Of a stretch of 32,991 bases of DNA, positions 17,950-26,344 are shown piece after piece. A program made the position numbers and the translations under genes. Origin of the DNA: Candidatus Collierbacteria bacterium GW2011_GWC2_44_18 (GTDB lineage: Bacteria > Patescibacteriota > Microgenomatia > UBA1400 > MFAQ01); contig LCIE01000002.1 of NCBI GenBank assembly GCA_001000865.1, forward strand, positions 1-32,991. Direction: 5' to 3'. How positions within the stretch are numbered: position 1 is the first letter of the stretch; every line of letters begins with the position of its first letter. The notes under the pieces are model-generated. The model worked only from the letters and a program-made list of their open reading frames with translations. It ran no database searches and had not been told where the DNA came from.

Positions 17950-19374
17950 ATGCGCCCCCCAGTGGTTACTATTCTTGGACACGTCGATCACGGCAAAACT
18001 TCCTTGTTGGATCGTATCCGTCACGCCGAAGTCGCCGCAGGTGAAATCGGAGGTATCACTCAGGCTATCGGGGCTTATCAGATTGAGTACAAAGGCAAGA
18101 AGATCACCTTTATCGATACTCCTGGCCACGCCGCTTTTTCTGCTATGCGTCATCGTGGCGGTCAAGCAGCAGACGTAGCCATCCTTCTCGTCGCCGCCGA
18201 TGATTCCGTCATGCCTCAGACCATCGAATCCATCGAACACATTAAGTCGGCTGGAATTCCTTTTGTGGTTGCAGTCAACAAGGTTGATTTGCCAGGTGTT
18301 AATCCGGACAGAGTCAAGACTGATCTGGCTAATAACGGTGTTTATGTGGAAGGGTATGGCGGTAATGTCCCCCTGGTAAACATTTCCGCCAAGACTGGTA
18401 CTGGCGTCGACGATCTTCTGGAGATCATTCTGCTACTGGCCGAGCTGGAAGAACTCAAGGACAACTCTTCCGAAACTCCTTCAACCGCCTTAGTTATCGA
18501 ATCCTCGCTTCATCCTCAGATCGGGCCTCTAGCCACTCTTTTGGTTAAGAGTGGAACCTTCAAAAAAAACGATAGTCTATTCTTAGTCAAGAAAAATGCC
18601 GGCAAGGTTAGATCGATGATCGATTACACTGGAAAAGCCATCTTGGAAGCAACTCCATCGACTCCATTTCAGGTCATTGGTCTGTCTGATGTTCCTAGTG
18701 TCGGCGACATTGTCTCCAACACCATTATTGTCTCTGTAGGGGCGGACCCCCGCGTCCGCCCGGAATCCTCAAATCCCGACCCAGGCACCCTCACCAACAT
18801 CGAAAAGCCCACCATCCTCCTCAAAGCCGATGTCCAAGGTTCTCTGGAAGCAATCTTGAGTTCTATTCAAGACCAAGTTAATGTGGTCTATTCTTCTGTC
18901 GGCAACATATCTGACTCCGACATTCAAACTGCCTCTTCCGCCCATGCCGAGATACTTGGCTTCAATGTTCGCATCTCAGGCTCTGTCACCAAGTTGGCCG
19001 AAATCGAAAAAGTTAAATTTACCAATTTTCGAATCATTTATCAGCTCTTTGATTATTTAAAGGAACTCCAAGAAAAAAAGACCATTGCCCAAGGACCAAA
19101 AATTATCGAAACCGGACAGGCAACAGTGTTAAAGGTCTTCAATTTCGCGGGGACTATCGTTTACGGCTGTGTTGTCACTTCAGGAAAAATAAAAATTACT
19201 GATAAGATCCAAAATTCAAAAATTTCTTCCTTGCAAGCCAACAAAACAGAAGCCTTGGAGGTCAAAAAAGACCAGGAGTTTGGCCTTACCCTTATTCCTC
19301 CTATAGAGTTCAAACCCGGTGATATAATGACGGCAACTACTACTGAAGTCCTGCCCGCCAGTAAGCAAGCATAA
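17950..19374 (+). CDS. infB: Translation initiation factor IF-2 (no N-terminal domains)
   Basis: Starts at 'MRPPVVTILGHVDHGKTSLLDRIR'; 'GGITQAIGAYQIEYKGKKITFIDTPGHAAFSAMRHRGGQAADVAILLVAADD'; 'ILLKADVQGSLEAI'. Confidence 0.95.
   Translation: MRPPVVTILGHVDHGKTSLLDRIRHAEVAAGEIGGITQAIGAYQIEYKGKKITFIDTPGHAAFSAMRHRGGQAADVAILLVAADDSVMPQTIESIEHIKSAGIPFVVAVNKVDLPGVNPDRVKTDLANNGVYVEGYGGNVPLVNISAKTGTGVDDLLEIILLLAELEELKDNSSETPSTALVIESSLHPQIGPLATLLVKSGTFKKNDSLFLVKKNAGKVRSMIDYTGKAILEATPSTPFQVIGLSDVPSVGDIVSNTIIVSVGADPRVRPESSNPDPGTLTNIEKPTILLKADVQGSLEAILSSIQDQVNVVYSSVGNISDSDIQTASSAHAEILGFNVRISGSVTKLAEIEKVKFTNFRIIYQLFDYLKELQEKKTIAQGPKIIETGQATVLKVFNFAGTIVYGCVVTSGKIKITDKIQNSKISSLQANKTEALEVKKDQEFGLTLIPPIEFKPGDIMTATTTEVLPASKQA
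18737..18765. repeat. Palindromic element inside infB
   Basis: GGGCGGAC-ccccgc-GTCCGCCC (18740-18761), encoding 'GADPRVRP'. Confidence 0.75.
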
Positions 19375-19376
19375 TT

Positions 19377-20318
19377 ATGGAAGATCAAAATCAGTTTTTA
19401 TCGACCAAAAAACTTCTCGAATCCGCTACTTCACTTATAGTTGTTCTTCCCCCTGATCCATCGGAAGATCTGGTCGCCGCTGGTTTAAGTCTCCATTTGA
19501 CACTGCTCTTAATGGGCAAAAAATCTCAAATTGGTTGCGGCAGTGAAGTGAGTGTCGGCCCCAAACTGCACGGAGCCCAGGAAATTACCGATAGTATCGG
19601 CGCCCGAAATCTGGTGATCTCCTTTGATTATCACGAAGACGATCTGGAGAAAGTCGATTACGATGTCCGCCCCGATGGCAAGTTCTACCTAATGATCAAG
19701 CCCAAGGCGAACGCTCCAGTCCCAGATGTGAGCAATGTCAAATACGCTTACTCTGGTGCATCAGCAGATTTGGTAATTACCTTAGGAATTGGTTCTTTAG
19801 AAGAGCTGGGCAAAATCTATGCCGATGAAAAAAATTTTTTGGACGAAGCCAAAATACTTAGTCTCAACATCACACCCAAACCAATTCAGTTCACCAAGAA
19901 TTTACTTCATCAGACTTCAGGTTCTTTTTCCGAACTGGTTGCTCTTCTTATGGATAGAGCTGGTATCAAACCAGACTCCGAAGCGGCCAAGAATCTTCTC
20001 GGTACCATTTACGAGGAAACCAAAGATCTCACGAGCCCTCGTATGACGGCCGATACTTTTTCCACCATCGCTTTTCTCATGCGACATGGTGCCCGCTTAC
20101 CAAACCAACAGGCTTTCGTTCCCCGATTCGCTCAGCCCGCCTTTTTCGAGGCTCCCACTTCTCTCGCCACTCCGGAAGTTATCGAAGAGGATAATCCATC
20201 CGCCGATCAGGAGGATATCCCTCTCCCCCCGGAGGAAAATGCTCCCCCAGCCGAAGCTAGCCAGCCCATTCCCAAAGATTGGACCAAACCCAAGATCTTC
20301 CGCGCCACCGACCTGTAG
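19377..20318 (+). CDS. DHH/NrnA-like protein with apparently degenerate catalytic motifs
   Basis: Overall NrnA-like layout ('LPPDPSEDLVAAGLSLHLTLLLMGK', 'LSLNITPKP...TSGSFSELVALLMDRAG', 'LLGTIYEETKDL...TADTFSTIAFLMRHGA') lacking the DHH motif; located between infB and rpsO. Confidence 0.55.
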   Translation: MEDQNQFLSTKKLLESATSLIVVLPPDPSEDLVAAGLSLHLTLLLMGKKSQIGCGSEVSVGPKLHGAQEITDSIGARNLVISFDYHEDDLEKVDYDVRPDGKFYLMIKPKANAPVPDVSNVKYAYSGASADLVITLGIGSLEELGKIYADEKNFLDEAKILSLNITPKPIQFTKNLLHQTSGSFSELVALLMDRAGIKPDSEAAKNLLGTIYEETKDLTSPRMTADTFSTIAFLMRHGARLPNQQAFVPRFAQPAFFEAPTSLATPEVIEEDNPSADQEDIPLPPEENAPPAEASQPIPKDWTKPKIFRATDL

Positions 20319-20377
20319 ATAGGAATGGTTGTGCCTACTGACAAAACCATCTCCTTCTGCTACAATACCAACTTGAT

Positions 20378-20665
20378 ATGGCTCTAAAACCTGACACCAA
20401 AATAGACATCATTAAGAAGTTCGCCGCCAGCCCCAAGGACACCGGCTCTCCCCGTGTGCAAATTGCCCTTCTTACTTCTCAGATCGAAGAACTGACCGGC
20501 CATCTCAAGGTCCACAAGAAGGACAATCACTCTCGCCGTGGTCTCCTTAAGATTATCAGCAAACGCCGCCGCCTTCTTAACTATGTCAGTAAATCCAACC
20601 CCAAGGATTATCTTGAAATTGCCAAGTCTCTTAAAATTACTAGCCAGTTGCGCTCGGCCGACTAA
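20378..20665 (+). CDS. rpsO: 30S ribosomal protein S15
   Basis: 'SPRVQIALLTSQIEELTGHLKVHKKDNHSRRGLLKIISKRRRLLNYV'. Confidence 0.95.
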   Translation: MALKPDTKIDIIKKFAASPKDTGSPRVQIALLTSQIEELTGHLKVHKKDNHSRRGLLKIISKRRRLLNYVSKSNPKDYLEIAKSLKITSQLRSAD

Positions 20666-20765
20666 TATTTTGAGGAGTAAATAGAGAATATCTTTTTGTT
20701 GGTCTTTTCTGTTTTCTTCTCAAGAACCTGCGGTGGAGCACACATATTCAGAAAGGAAACCGGAT

Positions 20766-22976
20766 ATGACCTATCCATCCGCCACCATTGTCCTCAATGG
20801 TAAAACTATTACTATTGAAACCGGTCGCTTCGGCGCCCAAGCTTCAGGCTCCGTTACTGTCCGTTGTGGCGATACCATCGTCAACGCCGCAGTCGTTGCT
20901 TCCAAAAGAATCAAAGAGGGTATCGACTATTTTCCTTTGTCTCTCGACTATCAGGAGAAGCTTTATGCAGGTGGAGTCATTAGCTCCAGCCGTTTTATCA
21001 AACGTGAAGGTAGGCCTTCCGAGAACGAGATACTTACCGGCCGAGTTATCGACCGTTCTCTTCGTCCCTTATTTGATCAGCGCAGTCGCAACGAAGTCCA
21101 GATTATGGCTTCACCTCTATCTATTGATGGTCAGGAAGAGCCGGAAATCTTGGCTGTTATTGCCGCTTCCGCCGCCGTTTCTATTTCCGATTATCCTTGG
21201 GCCGGACCTGTCGGTGCCGTTCGTCTCGGTATGACTCCTGATGGTCAATACATTGTTAACCCCACTACCGAACAAAAATTAACTTCACCACTTGATCTCG
21301 TCGTCTCTGGACCCAAAGGCGGTATTAGTATGGTCGAAGCGGGAGCCAACGAAGTTACCGAAGAAAAAATGATTGGGGCTCTTAAGTTCGCCCAGGAAAA
21401 TGTAGATATCATTTGTGACGCCATCGAAAAGTTCGCCAAAGAAAACGGTAAGAAAAAACGAACCCTAGTTTTCTCGGAAATTGATCCGGCTGTCACGAAG
21501 ATTGTTAAAGACGAAATCAAAAATATCGATGAGATTTTGGTCAACGAAGCCAAAAAAACCGGCACCCAGATGGCAGAATACACTGCCACCATTGCTCTTG
21601 CTCACCCGGAAATAAATCCCAATCAAATCAACGAAGTTGCAGATGGCATGCTTCGCACCCTAGCCCGCGCCGGGATACTTAATGACAGCAAACGTCCCGA
21701 TGGTCGTGAAATCGAAGAAATCAGAAAAATTAATATCGAAGTTGGTCTTCTACCTCGTACTCATGGCTCCGCTTTCTTCCAAAGAGGGCTGACTCACGTA
21801 CTTTCTGTTGTTACCTTAGCCTCTCCCGCGAGAGAACAGTTGATCGATGGTATGAAAGGTGAATCCACCAAACGTTACATGCATCACTACAACATGCCCG
21901 GCTACGCTTCGGGTGAAGTGGGCAGACCCGGTACCGGTCGCCGAGAAATAGGTCATGGTGCTTTGGCCGAAAGGGCTATCTTCCCCATGTTACCCTCTAC
22001 CGAAGATTTTCCCTACGCCATCCGTGTAGTTTCCGAAGTTATGTCCAGCAACGGTTCTACCTCACAAGCTTCTGTTTGTGGATCCACCTTATCTCTTATG
22101 GACGCTGGAGTTCCTCTCAAGAAACCGGTGGCCGGAGTGGCCATGGGTCTAGTTACGCAAGGTGACAAATATGTAACCCTAACCGATATTAGTGGTCTGG
22201 AAGATCATCTGGGTGATATGGATTTCAAGGTTGCCGGCACGGTTGATGGTATTACCGCCCTCCAAATGGACATTAAAGTCACTGGAGTCAACGCTAATAT
22301 CTTGATCAAAGCCTTAGAGCAGGCCAAGCGTGGCCGTCTCAAACTACTGGATATTATGAACGAAACACTTTCCGCTCCTCGTCCCAAACTATCTCAATAT
22401 GCTCCGAGAATCATGTCTACCAAAGTTCCTCAGCTTAAGATTGGTGAAATTATTGGACCTGGTGGTAAGATGATCCGTCAGATTCAGGAAGACTTCGAAT
22501 GTGAAATCGACATTCAGGAAGATGGCCGTGTTACGGTTACCGGAAAAGATCAGGCGAAAGTTGATGCCGCAGTAGCCTATATAGATTCTATGGTTGCCGA
22601 AGTAGAAGTGGGCAAAACCTATGAAGGCACTGTTGTTCGTATTGAAGCTTTTGGTGCCTTTGTTAACGTCATCCCGGGCAAAGACGGTTTGGTTCACGTC
22701 AGCCAAGTCAGTCCTGAAACCTTCAGATCCATGAAGATGGGGGACAAAGTCACTGTTCGTTGCTATGAAATCGATTCCATGGGCAGAGTTAATCTGACCA
22801 TGCTAGAAGAAGGAGAAACTCCCATACGTGCCGAAAGACCGGCTGGGGGTTCTGGTTTTGGCGGAGGACAACCCTCAGGCGGACGGGGTTTCGGCGGCGG
22901 CGGTGATCGCGGGAACAGTCGTGGTGGTCGACCCGGCGGTCGTCCTTCCTTCTCAAAGTTCCGCGACACCCGCTAA
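20766..22976 (+). CDS. pnp: Polyribonucleotide nucleotidyltransferase (PNPase)
   Basis: 'VIDRSLRPLFDQRSRNEVQIMASPLSIDGQEEPEILAVIAASAAVSISD', KH and S1 domains, RG-rich tail. ORF track begins at a GTG at 20733; the ATG at 20766 after 'agaaaggaaacc' is preferred. Confidence 0.95.
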   Translation: MTYPSATIVLNGKTITIETGRFGAQASGSVTVRCGDTIVNAAVVASKRIKEGIDYFPLSLDYQEKLYAGGVISSSRFIKREGRPSENEILTGRVIDRSLRPLFDQRSRNEVQIMASPLSIDGQEEPEILAVIAASAAVSISDYPWAGPVGAVRLGMTPDGQYIVNPTTEQKLTSPLDLVVSGPKGGISMVEAGANEVTEEKMIGALKFAQENVDIICDAIEKFAKENGKKKRTLVFSEIDPAVTKIVKDEIKNIDEILVNEAKKTGTQMAEYTATIALAHPEINPNQINEVADGMLRTLARAGILNDSKRPDGREIEEIRKINIEVGLLPRTHGSAFFQRGLTHVLSVVTLASPAREQLIDGMKGESTKRYMHHYNMPGYASGEVGRPGTGRREIGHGALAERAIFPMLPSTEDFPYAIRVVSEVMSSNGSTSQASVCGSTLSLMDAGVPLKKPVAGVAMGLVTQGDKYVTLTDISGLEDHLGDMDFKVAGTVDGITALQMDIKVTGVNANILIKALEQAKRGRLKLLDIMNETLSAPRPKLSQYAPRIMSTKVPQLKIGEIIGPGGKMIRQIQEDFECEIDIQEDGRVTVTGKDQAKVDAAVAYIDSMVAEVEVGKTYEGTVVRIEAFGAFVNVIPGKDGLVHVSQVSPETFRSMKMGDKVTVRCYEIDSMGRVNLTMLEEGETPIRAERPAGGSGFGGGQPSGGRGFGGGGDRGNSRGGRPGGRPSFSKFRDTR

Positions 22977-24736: not shown

Positions 24737-24797
24737 TCTTGTCACTCTGAGCAGAGTGAGGCTTGTTGATCCCCGCAGGGGAGAATCTCACTCCACC

Positions 24798-24855
24798 CCG
24801 TCATTGCGAGTCTCGTACTCAGAGCCCTGCCTGCCGGCAGGCAGGTGTGGCAATC
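24798..24855. repeat. 58-nt dispersed repeat, second copy of 15003-15060
   Basis: ccgtcattgcgagtctcgtactcagagccctgcctgccggcaggcaggtgtggcaatc; one mismatch to 15003-15060 by eye. Confidence 0.88.
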
Positions 24856-24904
24856 CATCCCTTCTGGATCGCCACGTCACAATATCTCCTCACGATGACG
24901 ATTT

Positions 24905-26344
24905 TTACCTCCCCAGCAACCCCTTCATTTTCCCTTCAATCGTCTCTGCCCTCTTCTTATTTTTCCCAAAAACAATGTAGGATAAATATCCGTCGGTCAG
25001 AAGATTCGAGGAGCAAATCACCACACCCTCCTTAGTTTTCCTAGAAAATAAAATTGGTTCCATCAGATTATGAAGTTTCTTAAATGTAAATTTTTTCGGT
25101 GGGATGCTATACATATTATTGGACACCACAAAACTTTTTTTGGTAAAGTTTCTACCAACAAGCTCTTTCCCCGCCTCGTACACATGTGTTCCTCCAGTCA
25201 CTCTCACATTTGATTCACTGACAAAGATATCGCCGCCTTTGGCCGCTATATAGTCGACGTCAAAATATCCTCGATATCCGTCCTTTGAAAATTGTTCGCC
25301 GATCAAATACCCAATATCGGTCACTCTCGAGGCCACCCTTTTTGGTAACACATCTTCACCTATTTCCACTCCACCGAACTCCCCTTTGCTATTTACCCTC
25401 ATTCCACAGTAATACAGAAACTCTACCTCACCATCCTGCCTGATGAAGAACTCAGCATTTGGAAACCCTCCCCCGATTCTGGGATTCGGCACGACCAAGG
25501 ACTCCACTACAATCGGAAATTTCTCCCAATAGGCATCCTTCCTCAACAATTGAATAATTTCTTTCTCACATTCGACAAATTTCTTGGGCAAATCTCCCCT
25601 ATGAAAAATCAATACCCCTGCTCCAGAGTGTCCCTTATTCGTTTTTATTACCACCCCGCCTTCCTTAATGTATTTGTTTGCTGCAATTCCCGCCGTATCA
25701 ATGATGCCCGAACTGATTACCCCGTTTGGCATTTTCAAGTCTGCTCGTATAGCCCCATTTATTTGAGTCAGCTGACGGATGCCAGACTTACTACCGTAAA
25801 AGTTCACCGTCCACGCATTTGCCTTCTTAGGTGCTTCGGAGGTCCGTACTTCGACTTTTTCTGCCTTTAACTCGTCTACCAATTTCAGGAAATGAGAGGT
25901 CGTTGAGTAGGCTGTAATATTTATTCTTTTATACTCTTTACCCAATTGAATTAGTCTTTTCATCACCACTCTATCATTTAAGACATCTTCACAGAGCAAA
26001 CCCGTATGTTTTGCAGGAACCAATATTTCCAGATCCCTCACCATACAAACCTTTTTGTAATACTCAACAAAAAGTGGATCAATTGATTTTGGGGTAATAA
26101 AAGTAAACTCAAATTCTTCAGCCATTGAAAATAGATCCTTATCCGACAAATTAGCGTTCTCATCTATCTCCCATTTTTGTAACTTCTTATCTCCGTAGGC
26201 CTCGATAAACGGCCACACATCCTCCGAACAATTAAATATCCTTACTACTCTCTCTTTTTTCTTACCCCCAGGCTTTTCCCCTTCATCGTCATTGCGAGTT
26301 TCGTACTCGAACCGTGGCAATCTAGATTTAATTATCTTTTTCAC
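24905..26344 (-). CDS. ATP-grasp-type ligase (pre-ATP-grasp / PGM1-like)
   Basis: 'VVIKTNKGHSGAGVLIF', 'GYFDVDYIAAKGGDIFVSESNVRVTGGTHVYEAGKEL' (N-x-R-x-TGGTH). The 5' end overlaps a dispersed repeat, so the start (GTG at 26344) is uncertain. Confidence 0.65.
   Translation of the reverse strand: MKKIIKSRLPRFEYETRNDDEGEKPGGKKKERVVRIFNCSEDVWPFIEAYGDKKLQKWEIDENANLSDKDLFSMAEEFEFTFITPKSIDPLFVEYYKKVCMVRDLEILVPAKHTGLLCEDVLNDRVVMKRLIQLGKEYKRINITAYSTTSHFLKLVDELKAEKVEVRTSEAPKKANAWTVNFYGSKSGIRQLTQINGAIRADLKMPNGVISSGIIDTAGIAANKYIKEGGVVIKTNKGHSGAGVLIFHRGDLPKKFVECEKEIIQLLRKDAYWEKFPIVVESLVVPNPRIGGGFPNAEFFIRQDGEVEFLYYCGMRVNSKGEFGGVEIGEDVLPKRVASRVTDIGYLIGEQFSKDGYRGYFDVDYIAAKGGDIFVSESNVRVTGGTHVYEAGKELVGRNFTKKSFVVSNNMYSIPPKKFTFKKLHNLMEPILFSRKTKEGVVICSSNLLTDGYLSYIVFGKNKKRAETIEGKMKGLLGR
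26287..26330. repeat. Dispersed 'cgtcattgcgag...gtggcaatct' repeat overlapping the 5' end of the ATP-grasp gene
   Basis: cgtcattgcgagtttcgtactcgaaccgtggcaatctag. Confidence 0.7.

Follow-up and report, generated by a model that had tools for sequence, protein, structure and literature searches.

A class-conserved DHH-fold pseudoenzyme encoded between infB and rpsO in Microgenomatia

What protein is encoded between the genes for IF2 and ribosomal protein S15 in this bacterium, and what is it kept for? The window, i.e., the whole stretch of 32,991 nucleotides analysed here, comes from a genome that is most closely related, among named ones, to Candidatus Collierbacteria MAGs (Microgenomatia/Patescibacteria). 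Within it, a sole gene, here called X (19377..20318, + strand), separates infB (IF2; 17950..19374, +) from rpsO (S15; 20378..20665, +), with pnp (PNPase; 20733..22976, +) next downstream. According to the ORF reading, X encodes 313 amino acids, its ATG lies 2 nt past the infB stop codon, and a gap of 59 bp separates it from rpsO. The initial annotation was right about the exact position of the ORF, its lone status between infB and rpsO, and its location next to the genes for S15 and PNPase, and the rbfA/nrnA/truB arrangement it had expected in this interval does occur in other Patescibacteria, as infB-rbfA-nrnA (e.g., L134) and as nrnA-like-truB-rpsO(-pnp) (L112). The order infB-X-rpsO-pnp is kept across the class Microgenomatia and in several lineages outside it, and an unrelated extra ORF sometimes precedes rpsO in the loci of the class. 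In several Collierbacteria relatives (L062-L071), the X-rpsO interval spans 270-1000 bp and holds varying, mutually unrelated ORFs, some of which look SET-like or Fic-like by eye. A candidate promoter (CTGACA-17-TACAAT with an extended TG; window 20338-20366, +) was noticed some 11 nt ahead of the start codon of rpsO, which may additionally be transcribed from a promoter of its own with a leader of very few nucleotides; promoter-like sites in the region were about as many as chance would give, and neither the promoter/terminator scan nor the Rfam scan gave a result bearing on X.

The fold of the protein was assigned from a family profile and a structural model. Searched as a single sequence, X matched none of the Pfam families, and its NCBIfam matches were weak and far below the cut-off; thus, homology detection required a family profile. 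Profile A1, an alignment of 22 X family members, retrieved from the PDB 4ls9 (E = 2e-14), TM1595 (7e-14), and NrnA (about 1e-10), and 13 of the 22 members matched Pfam DHH (PF01368) at E < 0.1, the best at 2.6e-6. An AlphaFold2 model built on 26 sequences had a confident core, with a pLDDT of at least 90 for most blocks of the DHH part and of 73-87 in the region of an insert described below. When this model was submitted to Foldseek, the top match had an E value of 8e-12 and a probability of 1.00, and the matches were DHH phosphodiesterases and their relatives, namely the TM1595 phosphodiesterase, NrnA homologues (the mycobacterial 4ls9 at 5e-11), GdpP, DhhP, and family II pyrophosphatases. 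The closest solved folds are those of TM1595 (TmPDE, 5o1u/5o4z), GdpP, and DhhP (8e-12 to 1e-7), which are catalytic, DHHA1-containing enzymes acting on cyclic dinucleotides or pApA. As judged from profile and model, X is a member of the DHH phosphoesterase superfamily by fold, as the initial annotation had proposed. Apart from X, the window genome has a single DHH protein that passes the Pfam cut-off (L127), and from its sequence this looks like a family II Mn pyrophosphatase; it belongs to the same superfamily, but its DHH motif is intact and its C-terminal domain is a different one, and it is not a close relative of X.

The active site of Bacillus subtilis NrnA consists of H20, D24, D26, D80, H103, H104, and D156 (PMC9757072). 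At these seven positions X carries P25, S29, D31, G137, I165, T166, and E214, such that a single metal ligand (D31) is left, and the aspartate of the DHH motif is gone as well (N164). Alignment with intact homologues and NrnA placed the former motif I at residues 25-31 (PPDPSED; 19449..19469, +), in which P25 replaces the histidine and S29 the first aspartate while the second is retained as D31. The former motif II aspartate is now G137 (19785..19787, +), a glycine shared by 46 of the 55 class members; the former DHH motif aligns with N164-I165-T166 (19866..19874, +), and the former motif IV aspartate with E214 (20016..20018, +), which is followed by the conserved T215 ('EETKDL'). The losses read earlier in these motifs (the motif I histidine, the DHH signature, and the motif IV aspartate) were correct, but the retained second aspartate of motif I had been overlooked.

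To express the degree of degeneration, ligands were counted over both aspartates of motif I, the aspartate of motif II, the three DHH residues, and the aspartate of motif IV, a count that includes the DHH aspartate and excludes the motif I histidine. The 55 class members retain 0-4 of these seven ligands, with a median of 1 and exactly one in 31 members, while 6-7 are retained both by 16 other members of the insert family described below (GGGH present in 15 of them) and by true NrnA proteins (n = 17). D31 is near-invariant in the class (50/55), and T215, E186, and N206 are strongly conserved besides it, while many different residues occupy the three positions of the DHH motif. Most conserved positions of the X family hold a hydrophobic residue, Gly, Asn, Lys, Tyr, or Pro, and no replacement set of conserved metal-binding residues was found among the class members. 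The GGGH motif is absent from X, and DHHA1 (PF02272) had no match in the window genome, the assembly of which is about 91% complete.

The initial annotation had likened X to NrnA/DHH proteins and regarded it as a catalytically dead member. In X, the spacer between motifs I and II measures 97 amino acids, as compared with 46-58 in NrnA, and 93-110 are found in nearly all full-length members of a family that we refer to as the insert family; by sequence, X carries its hallmark, an insert of about 48 residues between the two motifs. Other Patescibacteria have infB-rbfA-nrnA with an intact NrnA plus this second family, with a spacer of about 96 residues. Insert-family members with 6-7 ligands, most of them with GGGH (e.g., L100, L102, L112, L115, L118, and L119), lie upstream of (truB-)rpsO-pnp. 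In a tree from a quick search, with SH-aLRT support only and with the insert columns not deliberately removed, the 83 insert-family rows and the 17 NrnA rows were separated with a support of 99 on each branch, and the class members of X formed one clade (support 98). The insert and the tree make descent of X from the insert family, the sister of NrnA, the most likely reading; an NrnA without its motifs thus gave way to a member of a paralogous Patescibacteria family. In-place decay of NrnA was rejected on account of the insert, the tree, and the coexistence of intact NrnA with X in some class genomes. The two proteins share the DHH fold, a similar order of elements, the infB-rpsO neighbourhood, and common ancestry. 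NrnA (NF053633, DHH-DHHA1) is a bifunctional oligoribonuclease/PAP phosphatase; X differs from it in the loss of six of seven metal ligands, the absence of DHHA1 and GGGH, the beta insert, a new C-terminal linker and motif, and its separate branch. Close counterparts of X are unnamed insert-family DHH-DHHA1 proteins (e.g., L089, L100, and L112), which have the same insert, fall in the same tree clade, and are in several cases encoded directly upstream of rpsO-pnp or truB-rpsO-pnp. They keep 6-7 ligands and DHHA1, whereas X derives from such proteins but is dead and has no DHHA1.

Every class member read between infB and rpsO was degenerate, the most divergent included. A 59-row clade (support 94) holds most degenerate members, and L104/L124 and L087/L114/L088/L109 fall elsewhere, suggesting that catalysis was lost more than once. 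Some dead members (L105, L106, L120, L121, and L122) are only 212-218 amino acids long and end at or before motif IV, and several of them also lie in an infB-X-rpsO-pnp neighbourhood. Family f40 has very divergent X homologues of about 370-378 amino acids at infB-X-rpsO-pnp that nearly escaped the profile (L147, L148, and L157), and in other genomes of that family (G123, G150, and G164) infB is followed directly by rpsO. One bin of another class, G212, has a contig with a Microgenomatia-type infB-X (L111; G212:C73) together with an infB-rbfA-nrnA locus of its own and an insert-family gene that is intact; this contig is probably bin contamination.

Could X nevertheless be the nanoRNase of its host? 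Outside the window, the window genome encodes an Orn of 181 amino acids (L195:973-1515, - strand; G000:C3) that matched Orn in the PDB at E = 2e-45. Intact, insert-less NrnA was found elsewhere in seven other class genomes (L208, L209, L210/L213, L211, L212, L214, and L215), and three of these genomes (G357, G369, and G390) also showed a dead X next to infB. The Orn of the window genome and the intact NrnA of the seven others indicated that X is not the nanoRNase, and Orn ruled out X as the sole, dead nanoRNase of its genome. RNase_T-family matches were seen in all nine members of the genus searched and in one other member of the family, and in 0 of 7 genomes from other families of the order.

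The dead protein is nonetheless firmly retained. X was present in 54 of 54 relatives searched and in 271 of 281 class genomes, or 233 of 237 of those of good quality (a few via NrnA-type matches alone); across the phylum, 249 of 287 genomes were positive with the profile, a figure to which other DHH paralogues contribute. For the closest pair, dN/dS was 0.074 over the whole gene and 0.03 over the insert, and values were 0.06-0.10 where measurable, synonymous sites being near saturation in more distant pairs. In-frame stops within the class were isolated cases only. On this sequence evidence, X is a class-conserved pseudoenzyme under purifying selection, in agreement with the retention of a dead protein suggested at the outset. 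That 233 of 237 good-quality genomes keep a dead family indicates, very probably, an important and so far undescribed non-cutting job.

Which parts of the protein might do this job? The family-specific insert (residues ~76-127; 19602..19757, +), supported by spacer length, AlphaFold2, and conservation, is predicted to form a four-stranded beta module, with a pLDDT of 87-96 over its strands. It has the highest mean conservation in the class (0.57 versus 0.42-0.51 in the other regions compared), had no match among PDB structures, and is present in intact and dead members alike; being most conserved and kept in both, it probably serves an older, non-catalytic function. In DHHA1's place lies a Pro/acidic-rich linker (residues ~247-297; 20115..20267, +), predicted to be disordered (pLDDT < 50 at residues 260-299) and variable in length and sequence among relatives. 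By eye, peptides such as SPACRQAG and VIPTEVEES, encoded at window 24763-25035 and in the L005 linker, resemble translated short repeated elements, one of which apparently lies inside the X linker in L005. The protein ends in a conserved motif, DWTKPKIFRA (residues 301-310; 20277..20306, +), of which W302, P305, and K306 are at least 90% conserved. DWxKPKI[FY] or a close variant occurs in 49 of 55 class members, with 2 matches in the 14,756 residues of the rest of those proteins, and no second copy was found elsewhere in the window genome. It is missing from 6 of the 55 and from several divergent families (f147 and f159), and hence it is not essential to the core function everywhere. The core of X is acidic (median pI of 5.1). 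The RNA-binding role that had been suggested thus found no support, as the acidic core and the loss of the substrate-binding DHHA1 argue, at the sequence level, against simple RNA binding, although specific RNA contacts are conceivable.

The computations covered the fold of X, the disappearance of its catalytic residues and of DHHA1, selection on the gene, its synteny, and the conserved insert and tail; from these we infer a role and partners. We give about an even chance to the reading that X is a non-catalytic adaptor of the translation or RNA-decay machinery. Its ancestor in the Patescibacteria would have been a DHH-DHHA1 phosphoesterase that was sister to NrnA, carried the extra beta insert, and was encoded upstream of truB-rpsO-pnp; it would have lost its metal site and DHHA1 and been retained as a non-catalytic protein. 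The DHH core and the conserved insert would make up one binding surface, the flexible acidic/proline linker would offer the DWxKPKI[FY] peptide for contact with another partner, and the protein may thereby tether translation or RNA-decay components from the same locus (IF2, S15/30S, or PNPase). The neighbouring genes hint only weakly at physical contact of X with IF2, S15, or PNPase.

X may instead be a ligand sensor that binds a nucleotide (a dinucleotide, pAp, or a (p)ppGpp-like compound) uncut and so regulates translation or PNPase; the conservation of D31 of the old pocket, T215, E186, and N206 fits such a role, but the substrate-recognizing DHHA1 with its GGGH is gone and residues at the remaining ligand positions change without constraint, a pattern not expected of a conserved binding site, and we consider a sensor possible but rather improbable. 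Strong purifying selection, together with the migrated residues that occur in some pseudoenzymes (PMC10211241), would also be compatible with an enzyme whose active site has been rebuilt; this is very unlikely, as a new conserved metal-binding cluster is what the class members lack, their conserved residues being mostly of the kinds listed above. The least probable reading, to which we attach hardly any weight, is a decaying nanoRNase en route to loss. Motif loss is indeed graded, some class members (Woykebacteria; families f20 and f22) keeping up to 4 of 7 ligands, but the low dN/dS, the retention in good-quality genomes, the scarcity of in-frame stops, and the conservation of insert and tail all speak against decay.

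The position of X invites a further explanation, namely that it took over the part once played by RbfA in 30S maturation. X lies where rbfA would stand, directly after infB; RbfA (PF02033) was undetected in 20 of 20 relatives and among the class genomes listed by the phylum search, while it was detected in 146 of 287 phylum genomes, and loss of RbfA, Era, and Der has been published for Microgenomatia/WWE3/Dojkabacteria (PMC12641178). The degenerate, DHHA1-less proteins adjacent to infB that were examined outside the class (e.g., in G060, G082, G066, G098, and G306) likewise occur in genomes without detected RbfA. Against this, X had no Pfam match to the RbfA/KH fold and no sequence likeness to RbfA, its fold being DHH; the shared state possibly reflects one ancestral event, and a deletion of rbfA-nrnA alone would put X beside infB. 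Tracking of catalytic loss with RbfA loss across the phylum was not supported for the insert family as a whole, for degenerate members with RbfA and intact ones without it exist. Since the two losses are uncoupled across the insert family, an RbfA-like role is a minority hypothesis, which we deem unlikely. Similarly doubtful is the proposal that the dead DHH protein would be a lineage-specific 30S or translation factor of Microgenomatia and their neighbours that offsets the missing RbfA and other published losses and docks via the new C-terminal DWxKPKI[FY] peptide. The preferred reading is still the non-catalytic adaptor.

No description of the X family was found in the open-licence literature on Patescibacteria/CPR, which is weak evidence of novelty, and the main text of PMC6744442 does not mention DHH proteins. 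Annotating these genes by their DHH/NrnA similarity would wrongly credit the genomes with a nanoRNase. With catalytic-looking and dead members in one phylum and more than one apparent loss, the family is a good test case for the passage from enzyme to pseudoenzyme. Many ribosome-assembly factors thought to be indispensable are absent from Patescibacteria (PMC12641178, PMC6744442), and X, which is almost universally kept between infB and rpsO-pnp, has no name, and is non-catalytic, offers a concrete candidate for such missing machinery.
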